Positions 33,975 to 36,642 of a stretch of DNA of 64,000 bases are shown piece by piece. The stretch covers positions 806,001-870,000 of the forward strand of contig NZ_CP039734.2 of assembly GCF_011769985.2 (NCBI RefSeq), written 5' to 3'. Made by a program: the position numbers and the translations under genes. The DNA comes from Sulfurospirillum diekertiae (GTDB taxonomy: Bacteria > Campylobacterota > Campylobacteria > Campylobacterales > Sulfurospirillaceae). The notes under the pieces are model-generated. The model made no database searches. It was not told the DNA's origin and saw nothing but the letters and a program-made list of their open reading frames with translations. Position 1 is the stretch's first letter; every line of letters begins with the position of its first letter.

Positions 33975-34439
33975 TCATTTGTATTCCACAGCAAAACCAC
34001 GGTCAAAGTTGATTAATCCACATATCAAATTAAAGCGTAGATTGAATCGTTTTCTTCTGTTTCTGTATTTTTGGGTGAGTATCTGAAATGTTTTGATTTT
34101 AGCATTCACATGTTCAACACATATTCTAGCACTTGCTTTTTGTCTGTTTTCCTCTTTTTGCTCCTCACTCAAAGGATGAAGTTTGGAGGCTTTATGGGGA
34201 ATTTGACAATGGCTATGTTCTTTGGCAATACCCAGATATCCCAAATCAACATAAACACAGGTCTTGGGCATCAAGGGGAGATTAGATTCTTGAAACAGTC
34301 TAAAATCATGTGTCGTACCTTTAGCGGTATGCACACACATAATCCTCTCCTCTTTATCAATCACAATCTGTCCTTTAAGGGTATGACGCTTTTGCTTACC
34401 TGAGTAGTACTCTCTTTGCTTTTTTTGGGTCTTTGACAA
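33975..34439 (-). CDS. IS5-family transposase, OrfB part (DDE domain)
   Basis: A 154-residue C-terminal part containing the DDE_Tnp_4-type core: GTTHDFRLFQES, VYVDLGYLGI (second Asp) and the ARICVEHVNAKIK segment (catalytic Glu). It lacks its own good start and is presumably translated by frameshifting from OrfA. The element looks intact and could be active. Confidence 0.85.
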   Translation of the reverse strand: MSKTQKKQREYYSGKQKRHTLKGQIVIDKEERIMCVHTAKGTTHDFRLFQESNLPLMPKTCVYVDLGYLGIAKEHSHCQIPHKASKLHPLSEEQKEENRQKASARICVEHVNAKIKTFQILTQKYRNRRKRFNLRFNLICGLINFDRGFAVEYK

Positions 34440-34834
34440 GGCGTTTCTGTCGCATCAATGACAACAAAAGAGAGGGCAACATCACTTTTATAGAGTTCTC
34501 TCTTGCTTGGCAATGAAAATCTACCAGACTTAATCAACACTTCTTCTACTTCACATACAATCCTTGAAGCCGTTGATTCACTCACACCATAATCAAATCC
34601 AATATGTTCAAGGGTGCGATACTCACGATAATAGCCAAGCATCAAAAGTACTTTATTTTCTGGTGAAAGAGATCTCCTCCCTCCTACACCTAATCCTTTT
34701 TTACGATTCTCATCGTATTGCCTAAACACCTCTATCATTGCGTTAAATGTCTCTTCATTAACGCCAATATGGCGCTTAAAATCTTTGGGTTTATGCTTTT
34801 GCATTTGTTCATATTTTTTCATGCCTCTTGCCAA
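34361..34834 (-). CDS. IS5-family transposase, OrfA part
   Basis: A 157-residue N-terminal part of the transposase with a helix-turn-helix (GYYREYRTLEHIGFDYGVSESTASRIV). It ends shortly after the first catalytic Asp region (FVVIDATE). The frame passes into OrfB at CCC-AAA-AAA-A (about 34416-34425) by a -1 slip, so full-length transposase is probably made as a fusion. Confidence 0.85.
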   Translation of the reverse strand: MARGMKKYEQMQKHKPKDFKRHIGVNEETFNAMIEVFRQYDENRKKGLGVGGRRSLSPENKVLLMLGYYREYRTLEHIGFDYGVSESTASRIVCEVEEVLIKSGRFSLPSKRELYKSDVALSFVVIDATETPCQRPKKSKESTTQVSKSVIPLKDRL

Positions 34835-34972: not shown

Positions 34973-35001
34973 TTGCGATTTTTCAACTTCTGTGCTATAC
35001 T
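34973..35001 (+). promoter_or_regulatory. Promoter of the leu leader
   Basis: TTGCGA (34973-34978), 17-bp spacer and TATACT (34996-35001). The predicted transcript starts about 25 nt before the leader ORF. Confidence 0.6.
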
Positions 35002-35032: not shown

Positions 35033-35134
35033 ATGGAAACTTTTATCACCCATCAAACCATACACCAACCTCAGAGCATTGCGCAATTTTCTAACGCATC
35101 ACTCGTCGTCGTCCTCCTCCTGAAGCTCCGTTAA
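35033..35134 (+). CDS. Val/Leu-rich leader peptide of leuA (attenuator)
   Basis: A 33-residue ORF with AAAGGAG 5 nt before the ATG. After an ordinary N-terminal half it ends SLVVVLLLKLR and stop, with three Val and five Leu in the last ten codons (from 35102). This is the pattern of a transcription-attenuation leader for branched-chain amino acid genes; leuA starts 191 nt downstream. A T8 run is at 35153-35160, but I find only weak stems before it, so the mechanism is less certain than the peptide. Confidence 0.8.
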   Translation: METFITHQTIHQPQSIAQFSNASLVVVLLLKLR

Positions 35135-35325
35135 ACCTTCATTCTTAACCCCTTTTTTTTCACTGTTGATTTTTAAATTGGCTTTTTAGCCCTGAGGACA
35201 CCTCTACCTAATCAGCTCAATTTTTATCATTTTCATTGTTGTTTTTCTTGTCCTAACACAAGATTTTCTGCCTGATTTTGGCATGTATGAGCCTATAGCT
35301 CATTTGAACACTTAAGGATATTTCT

Positions 35326-36642
35326 ATGCAAACTGAACAAACTTTTAAAAAATACAAACCGTACCCGTTGGTACATTTAGCTCACCGCGAGTGGGCAAGT
35401 AACGTTATCACAAGAGCGCCTATTTGGGTTAGTACGGATTTAAGAGATGGCAACCAAGCTTTGGTTGAGCCGATGAATGCGACCAAAAAATTGGCGTATT
35501 TTCAAAAATTGGTCGAGATGGGATTTAAAGAGATCGAGATCGCGTATCCGAGTGCGTCGCAAACGGACTTTGACTTTTGTCGAACATTGATCGAACGGAA
35601 CTTAATTCCTGAGGATGTTAGGGTTGCGGTTTTGATGCCTTCCATCGAAAAATACATCAGAAAAACGTTTGAAGCGATGAAGGGGGCTAAAAAAGTAACG
35701 ATGCACCTTTACAACCCAACGGCGGACAATCAGCGCAAAATTGTGTTTGACAAAAGCAAAGCGGAGATCATCGCTTTAGCGGTTGAAGGGACACGCATTA
35801 TCAAAGAAGAGGCGGCAAAATTTAAAGGTGATGTGATGTTTCAGTACTCACCCGAGAGCTTTTCGCAAACGGAGTTGGAGTTCGCACGCGATGTGGTGAA
35901 TGCGGTTATCAGCGAGTGGATGCCCACGAAAAATGCACCGATGGTCATTAACTTGCCGAACACCTTGGAAGCCTGCACGCCGAACATTTATGCCGATCGA
36001 ATCGAGTGGATGAGCAAACAGATGTTGGAACGCGACTCCGTTATTTTAAGCGTTCACCCGCACAATGACAGAGGGTGTGCGGTAGCGAGTGCGGAGATGG
36101 CGATCTTAGCAGGGGCACAAAGAGTAGAGGGAACGCTTTTGGGCAATGGCGAGAGAGCGGGCAATGTTGACTTGATTACCTTAGCGTTCAATCTTTACTC
36201 GCAAGGGATCGATCCGATGTTAGACATCTACAACATCGATACGATTTTACAGGAGATCATTACATTGACGCACAGTAGCATTCCTCCCCGTCACCCTTAT
36301 GTAGGTTCTATGATTTACACGGCTTTTTCGGGTACCCATCAGGACGCAATAAAGAAGGGTATGGAGTACCAGAAGGTGGCGTTAGATGGTTATTGGCACG
36401 TACCGTACCTTGTGATCGACCCCAAGGATATCAAGCGGGATTATCGCGATGTGGTGCGCATTAACTCCCAATCGGGCAAAGGGGGCGTGGCGTATGTGCT
36501 GAAGGAGTTTTACGGCATTGAGACGACCAAAAACATGCAAATTGAAATTGCGTTGGAAGTCCAAAGGCTTTGTGATGAGAAGGGTATTGAAGTTACGGCA
36601 GAAGAGATTTTTAAAGTTTTCAGGCAAATATGCAAGCTTTGA
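35326..36642 (+). CDS. leuA: 2-isopropylmalate synthase without the regulatory domain
   Basis: A 438-residue enzyme for the first step of leucine synthesis (acetyl-CoA plus 2-ketoisovalerate). It is of the LEU4/actinobacterial type: WVSTDLRDGNQAL near residue 33, HPHNDRGCAVA near 246 and NGERAGNVDL. Such enzymes normally run to 550 residues or more with a C-terminal LeuA dimer domain that binds leucine; here the chain ends where that domain should start. Feedback inhibition may therefore be absent, leaving control to the leader peptide. Confidence 0.9.
   Translation: MQTEQTFKKYKPYPLVHLAHREWASNVITRAPIWVSTDLRDGNQALVEPMNATKKLAYFQKLVEMGFKEIEIAYPSASQTDFDFCRTLIERNLIPEDVRVAVLMPSIEKYIRKTFEAMKGAKKVTMHLYNPTADNQRKIVFDKSKAEIIALAVEGTRIIKEEAAKFKGDVMFQYSPESFSQTELEFARDVVNAVISEWMPTKNAPMVINLPNTLEACTPNIYADRIEWMSKQMLERDSVILSVHPHNDRGCAVASAEMAILAGAQRVEGTLLGNGERAGNVDLITLAFNLYSQGIDPMLDIYNIDTILQEIITLTHSSIPPRHPYVGSMIYTAFSGTHQDAIKKGMEYQKVALDGYWHVPYLVIDPKDIKRDYRDVVRINSQSGKGGVAYVLKEFYGIETTKNMQIEIALEVQRLCDEKGIEVTAEEIFKVFRQICKL

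Follow-up and report, generated by a model that had tools for sequence, protein, structure and literature searches.

A classical terminator-type Val/Leu attenuator most likely precedes leuA2 of Sulfurospirillum diekertiae, the gene of a feedback-free accessory isopropylmalate synthase. We hold it to be quite probable that a ribosome-mediated transcription attenuator controls this accessory 2-isopropylmalate synthase, an enzyme that would not be directly inhibitable by leucine. The leader, the terminator, the complementarity between them, the loss of a domain, the conservation of these elements and the existence of a paralogue (LeuA1) are supported by sequence and comparison. Most likely, leucine supply would control the amount of LeuA2 through an ordinary type of RNA switch.

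Leader peptide, hairpin and predicted switch

The features of the locus (Table 1) lie in the window, i.e., the whole stretch of DNA analyzed, with a length of 64,000 nucleotides (C1:806001-870000 of genome G000). The promoter ahead of the leader is putative, and TGTGCTATACT of the promoter region is found again across the aligned homologues. Between the leader stop and leuA2 there is a gap of ~190 nt. A transposase gene in two overlapping frames (HTH_Tnp_4 and DDE_Tnp_4, window 33975-34834, minus strand) sits upstream of the promoter-like site, at a distance of ~140 bases, and is not present at the corresponding site in a genome of the same species (L004). At gathering score, Rfam gave a single match across the window, to a tRNA, and none to the leader region, while a permissive Rfam search gave matches near the leader at chance level only.

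Table 1. Features of the leuA2 locus in window coordinates, with the LeuA1 leader in genome coordinates.
Feature	Position	Strand	Basis
Putative sigma-70-like promoter, TTGCGA-17-TATACT, extended -10 (TG)	34973-35001	+	consensus scan
Leader ORF, 33 codons plus stop	35033-35134	+	sequence; 16/16 genomes
Control codons L24-V25-V26-V27-L28-L29-L30	35102-35122	+	sequence
Control codon L32 (stop codon at 35132)	35126-35128	+	
Antiterminator 5' half (GUCCUC, CUGAAGCU, UUAA)	35111-35136	+	predicted pairing with 35172-35200
Terminator hairpin, AAAUUGGCU..UUAG..GAGG(ACA)CCUC..CUAA..AGC.CAAUUU	35175-35223	+	folding, 16 homologues
U-rich tract UUUUUAUCAUUUU, overlapping the last stem bases	35219-35232	+	sequence, aligned homologues
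leuA2, 438 aa, HMGL-like + IPMS_D2, PRK03739 type	35326-36642	+	domain and family scans
LeuA1 leader	G000:C1:2055875-2055967 (region L101:9850-9980)	minus	sequence, order-wide profile

The leader peptide reads METFITHQTIHQPQSIAQFSNASLVVVLLLKLR up to its stop codon, has a ribosome-binding site (AAGGAG) upstream and ends in ...SLVVVLLLKLR, i.e., ...NASLVVVLLLKLR, directly followed by the stop. An earlier note on this DNA had described a 33-codon ORF with a terminal Val/Leu run and had taken it for an attenuation-type leader. The ORF is confirmed, and the reading as an attenuation-type leader is supported by its conservation and by the conserved hairpin and U-tract described below. For the comparison we used the 16 Sulfurospirillum copies with a readable upstream region, out of 17 genomes with leuA2. 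The leader ORF is intact and indel-free in all of them, with a leader-hairpin spacer of variable length, and the run [LV][LV]VVLL..KLR is always kept directly ahead of the stop. The pN/pS of the leader ORF is 0.36 over these genomes, and pS falls from 0.51 in the enzyme ORF to 0.22 in leader codons 2-22 and 0.11 in codons 24-33, a scarcity of silent changes that is expected if this last stretch doubles as an RNA element. Judged from the lack of indels, the constant run and these substitutions, conservation of the leader ORF exceeds chance. Either Val or Leu may be the sensed amino acid, and codons 24-27 are the best placed.

In the earlier note the terminator stem was considered not obvious, and Rho or another mechanism was suggested in its place. 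Neither view is supported, since a conserved intrinsic-type hairpin with a U-tract is present between leader and gene, giving the locus the anatomy of classical attenuation. The hairpin has a folding energy of -13.8 kcal/mol (z -3.55, with none of 200 shuffles equally stable), and folding finds the same architecture of hairpin and U-tract in 16/16 homologues, with 97.8% of the cells of the terminator stem paired. In L011 the arm reads AAAUCGGCU and the 3' side is altered too, so the stem is rearranged at about equal stability. Base-pair covariation was sought in the terminator stem of the 16 homologues and none was found, as the 5' arm is almost invariant. The consensus terminator scan of the window did not detect the hairpin because its stem is interrupted. 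We conclude from sequence and folding that an intrinsic-type terminator is present between the leader and leuA2, termination itself being predicted. The distance from hairpin to leuA2 differs strongly between species, and species-specific insertions are seen there in six genomes (L005, L006, L008, L010, L086, and L093), some of them with a common sequence (GCGTTCTTGCAAAATAGCAAGAAC). These insertions indicate that the spacer is probably outside the switch.

The end of the leader (GUCCUC...CUGAAGCU...UUAAA) is complementary to the terminator's 5' arm and apical region (UUUAA...GGCUU..UUAG...GAGGAC), and the antiterminator 5' half overlaps the Val/Leu codons at the end of the run together with the stop codon. 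This pairing reaches -16.9 kcal/mol, a value that only 0.55% of shuffles equal (p 0.0055), and 98.3% of its cells are paired in the 16 sequences. The partners TCGTCGTCCTCCT, AAGCTCCG, and GGCTTTTTAGC show little or no variation among homologues, and a search for covariation or double changes in the antiterminator pairs of the 16 sequences, whose arms hardly vary, found none. In equilibrium folding the terminator prevails over the antiterminator in most species at any ribosome position, and stalling shifts the equilibrium clearly to read-through in few of them (from 1.00 to 0.28 in G020 and from 0.97 to 0.03-0.77 in G018). In none of the 16 species is the terminator likelier with a stalled ribosome than with one that has reached the stop codon. 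Given this dominance of the terminator at equilibrium, the switch, if real, must be kinetic and depend on the order in which the structures fold as the RNA is transcribed. Such a dependence is usual in attenuators.

The mechanism that we infer would begin with transcription starting just upstream of the leader, at the putative promoter. When charged tRNA-Leu and tRNA-Val are ample, the ribosome would reach the stop codon and cover CUGAAGCUCCGUUAA, the hairpin would form, and RNA polymerase would stop at the U-tract. Under a shortage of charged tRNA, the ribosome would instead stall in the L-V-V-V(-L-L-L) run. Standing on codons 24-27 (L/V-L/V-V-V), it would leave the CUGAAGCU and UUAA parts free, and this free leader segment would pair with the terminator 5' arm (GGCUUUUUAG, UUUAA), allowing leuA2 to be transcribed. 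The product would be an active LeuA2, presumably insensitive to leucine.

An accessory synthase lacking its leucine domain

The domain scan of the window protein places HMGL-like at residues 32-308 and IPMS_D2 at 329-393 of the 438-aa LeuA2 and finds no LeuA_dimer (PF08502), which bears out the earlier suggestion that the enzyme stops where its leucine-binding domain should begin. LeuA2 scores 667.9 bits against PRK03739 (cut-off 455), a full-length model of 550 positions of which it covers 2-431, and its top functional match is 2-isopropylmalate synthase. It aligns to residues 55-485 of the 644 of Mycobacterium tuberculosis (Mtb) LeuA, keeping nearly all of the aligned region to residue 485 and ending at the PF08502 boundary. 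As placed by its catalytic part only, LeuA2 is a domain-less variant of the PRK03739 (LeuA2/yeast-type) subfamily. The isopropylmalate synthase rows of a fold comparison align residues ~1-324 (the catalytic barrel) only and are uninformative on the C-terminal part, because model confidence is lower in the linker and at the C-terminus. A methyltransferase gene starts ~24 bases past the leuA2 stop, so there is no remnant of the lost domain. Supply of a hidden regulatory domain by another protein had also been contemplated; the genome search found a lone PF08502, inside LeuA1, and none for LeuA2. The genome also has a third HMGL-type gene (G000:C1:1029000). Two further genes (G000:C1:15186-16349, L104), following a divergent regulator-like gene, encode another LeuC/LeuD-like pair of 416 and 169 aa and are located apart from leuC (G000:C1:2687378) and leuDB (near G000:C1:1708702).

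Of the Mtb LeuA positions for substrate and metal that were checked, LeuA2 retains R80, D81, L143, H167, S216, E218, P252, T254, H285, H287, N321, H379, and Y410, the exceptions being T319 and V255. These catalytic residues and a pN/pS of 0.08 for the leuA2 ORF argue that LeuA2 is under selection. On the other side, 15 positions nearly or fully invariant in 24 relatives are replaced and fixed in Sulfurospirillum LeuA2 (G73A, F74Y, Q105P, R107I, V214L, and T278A at invariant sites), and the clade sits on a long branch of 1.37 changes per site. With these changes, the kinetics or substrate of LeuA2 may have shifted.

The gene is found in 17/24 Sulfurospirillum genomes and in none of 20 other genomes of the family, and every intact copy ends at the same point. 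Its relatives outside the genus (~50-55% identity) are longer, 541-568 aa, and PF08502 is present in both of those scanned. An RNA model running from leader to terminator gave strong matches (E < 1e-27) in each of the 17 genus genomes with leuA2; across 399 genomes of the order there was no strong match in the seven genus genomes without leuA2, nor elsewhere. Weak matches (E 1e-3 to 1e-2) were dismissed, none of them preceding leuA. LeuA1 is full-length (519 aa, with PF08502) and present in 44/44 family genomes, which suggests that LeuA2 is probably dispensable for basal leucine synthesis.

Full-length LeuA2 genes of other Campylobacterales have leucine leaders too, e.g., MTSTNNFHIPTIGNKALLLLSLLLLNL (L040) or MIQNQTVQNSTTRTKSFLLLSLLLLSF (L022), such leaders being common in the group. 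In six genomes (L022, L024, L025, L035, L040, and L076) leaders of this other type, such as MIxNQTVQN...KSLLLLSLLLLSL, lie 71-100 bases upstream of a full-length leuA2, the leucine domain of the enzyme being confirmed by scan only in L035. Leader-like ORFs are also seen in Rhizobiaceae (L014, L017, L021, L026, and L036), 146-235 bases upstream of full-length leuA2; they end in ...ALSSLLLLDLIRGCRVR/H or ...ALSLLSLDLTRGCRVQ, and the tail past the leucine run is conserved. The earlier idea that attenuation balances the loss of allosteric control survives in part. The leader is probably the sole leucine control on LeuA2 visible in the sequence; the leaders on LeuA1 and on full-length LeuA2 elsewhere in Campylobacterales imply that attenuation did not originate as a substitute for the lost domain.

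Alternative readings and known leucine leaders

Some observations count against the attenuator, namely a gap between leader stop and leuA2 that exceeds the need of a minimal attenuator, the lack of covariation in the pairs examined, and a terminator favored at equilibrium in most species. That the antiterminator is not dominant in equilibrium folding would suit a leader acting on translation or on Rho access, with the hairpin as a pause or stability element only, and the leuA1 leucine leader, ~50 nt from the start and without a terminator, indicates that leaders of a non-terminator type are present in this cell as well. We find such a role unlikely, because hairpin and U-tract occur in 16/16 species with a 5' arm complementary to the leader end, and because the variable distance between hairpin and leuA2 leaves the ribosome-binding site of the gene outside the conserved element.

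The enzyme itself might have shifted to another 2-oxo acid after the domain loss, the leader then sensing branched-chain amino acids as a nutritional signal only. The long branch, the fixed replacements and a family-wide LeuA1 that probably makes LeuA2 unneeded for basal leucine synthesis would all agree with this; we nevertheless give it a small probability, as the checked Mtb LeuA positions are kept except T319 and V255, the top functional match is still 2-isopropylmalate synthase (668 bits), and the control codons, Val and Leu, stand for the amino acids of the expected substrate and product. Much less credible is a relic leader, with leuA2 as what is left of a full-length gene in decay. The enzyme does lack its C-terminal domain and 7/24 genus genomes are without the gene, but leuA2 has the low pN/pS given above, its 438-residue end is the same in every intact homologue, and no domain remnant lies ahead of the next gene, so that decay appears very unlikely given these data on selection and conservation.

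The preferred reading, a terminator-type Val/Leu attenuator, has several known counterparts. Leucine leaders have already been reported for leucine genes of Epsilonproteobacteria: LeuL of Campylobacter jejuni is a short leucine-rich ORF ahead of leuABCD, short RNAs end just past the leader stop, and tRNA-coupled termination/antitermination was proposed for LeuL and its predicted orthologues (PMC3847290, Porcelli et al., 2013). Translation of LeuL has been seen by Ribo-seq (PMC11955535). The leuA2 leader is likewise a short leucine-rich ORF before a leuA gene, but it precedes the R-domain-less leuA2 instead of leuABCD and has a run of Val and Leu. It has no peptide core in common with the LeuA1-type leaders found here. 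In the attenuator of the enterobacterial leu operon, a leader with control codons is combined with competing antiterminator and terminator hairpins, and the leuA2 element resembles it in the control-codon leader and the predicted competing hairpins. It differs in its mixed Val/Leu codons, the lack of an Rfam match at gathering score, the absence of leuBCD behind leuA2, and an enzyme without a feedback control domain.

The actinobacterial LEU element upstream of leuA also has a leucine-codon leader before a leuA gene, and it acts through a pseudoknot in which the leucine run pairs with the Shine-Dalgarno box of leuA, without a terminator (PMC1262725, Seliverstov et al., 2005). Here the terminator is conserved and lies well upstream of leuA2 at a species-variable distance, so identity with the LEU pseudoknot was rejected.

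For the enzyme a close parallel is provided by Leptospira, which, like Sulfurospirillum, pairs a full-length LeuA1 with a domain-less LeuA2. In the portion of PMC12345160 drawn on here, Leptospira LeuA2 (428 aa, without the leucine domain; structures 4OV4 and 4OV9) is reported as not leucine-inhibited and as induced by superoxide, and no leader is described for it. The two LeuA2 proteins have 29% identity over the aligned core and belong to different subfamilies (PRK03739 vs. IPMS_Lepto). Membership of Sulfurospirillum LeuA2 in IPMS_Lepto (NF042434) was rejected at 192 bits against a cut-off of 500, the likeness being one of domain layout and not of family. With different subfamilies involved, domain loss in the two genera is best seen as parallel.

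The leader peptide of leuA1

The LeuA1 leader (MNSVDIGIMKSIKVLPKIEIKNALLQKLLFF, then stop) lies 52 nt upstream of leuA1, and no terminator was found between the two. Its core, K[SA]xKxLPKIE[IT]KNxLL, is conserved order-wide and has a pN/pS of 0.08 in 19 family genomes, as strict as an enzyme. A profile of the peptide matches in 102/399 genomes of the order, from 19 genera (a few of the weakest matches may be chance), and all 20 matches examined outside the family are directly upstream of leuA1, at 34-77 nt in 19 and at 285 nt in one. Within the core, residues L, P, I, E, and K are invariant and the codons for them vary, a pattern by which the peptide is under selection at the amino-acid level. 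The string LPKIEIKN had no match in the literature text searched.

Since the core is located just ahead of the leucine run, where the nascent chain would be placed in the ribosome tunnel at a stall, a peptide-assisted stall is a reasonable hypothesis, and the LeuA1 leader peptide is a candidate nascent-chain leucine sensor. A rival explanation would be that the peptide acts in trans. We propose tentatively, as a possibility still short of an even chance, that the two isopropylmalate synthases are under two distinct leucine-sensing leaders, LeuA2 via the terminator-type Val/Leu attenuator only and LeuA1 via a nascent peptide that would act in the tunnel and assist stalling at leucine codons. 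Of the two leaders, it is the LeuA1 one, with its conserved peptide, that gives the more surprising lead.

The leuA2 locus offers a natural, testable example of a committed step that has lost its allosteric control and keeps control of expression by attenuation, and it hints that in Campylobacterota leucine attenuation of the terminator type also acts on a gene other than those of the leuABCD locus already known. A comparison of the two LeuA paralogues within a single cell led in turn to a leader peptide conserved order-wide at the amino-acid level, possibly a leucine sensor of a new kind; if true, peptide-assisted stalling at leucine codons would make this a novel type of amino-acid leader.
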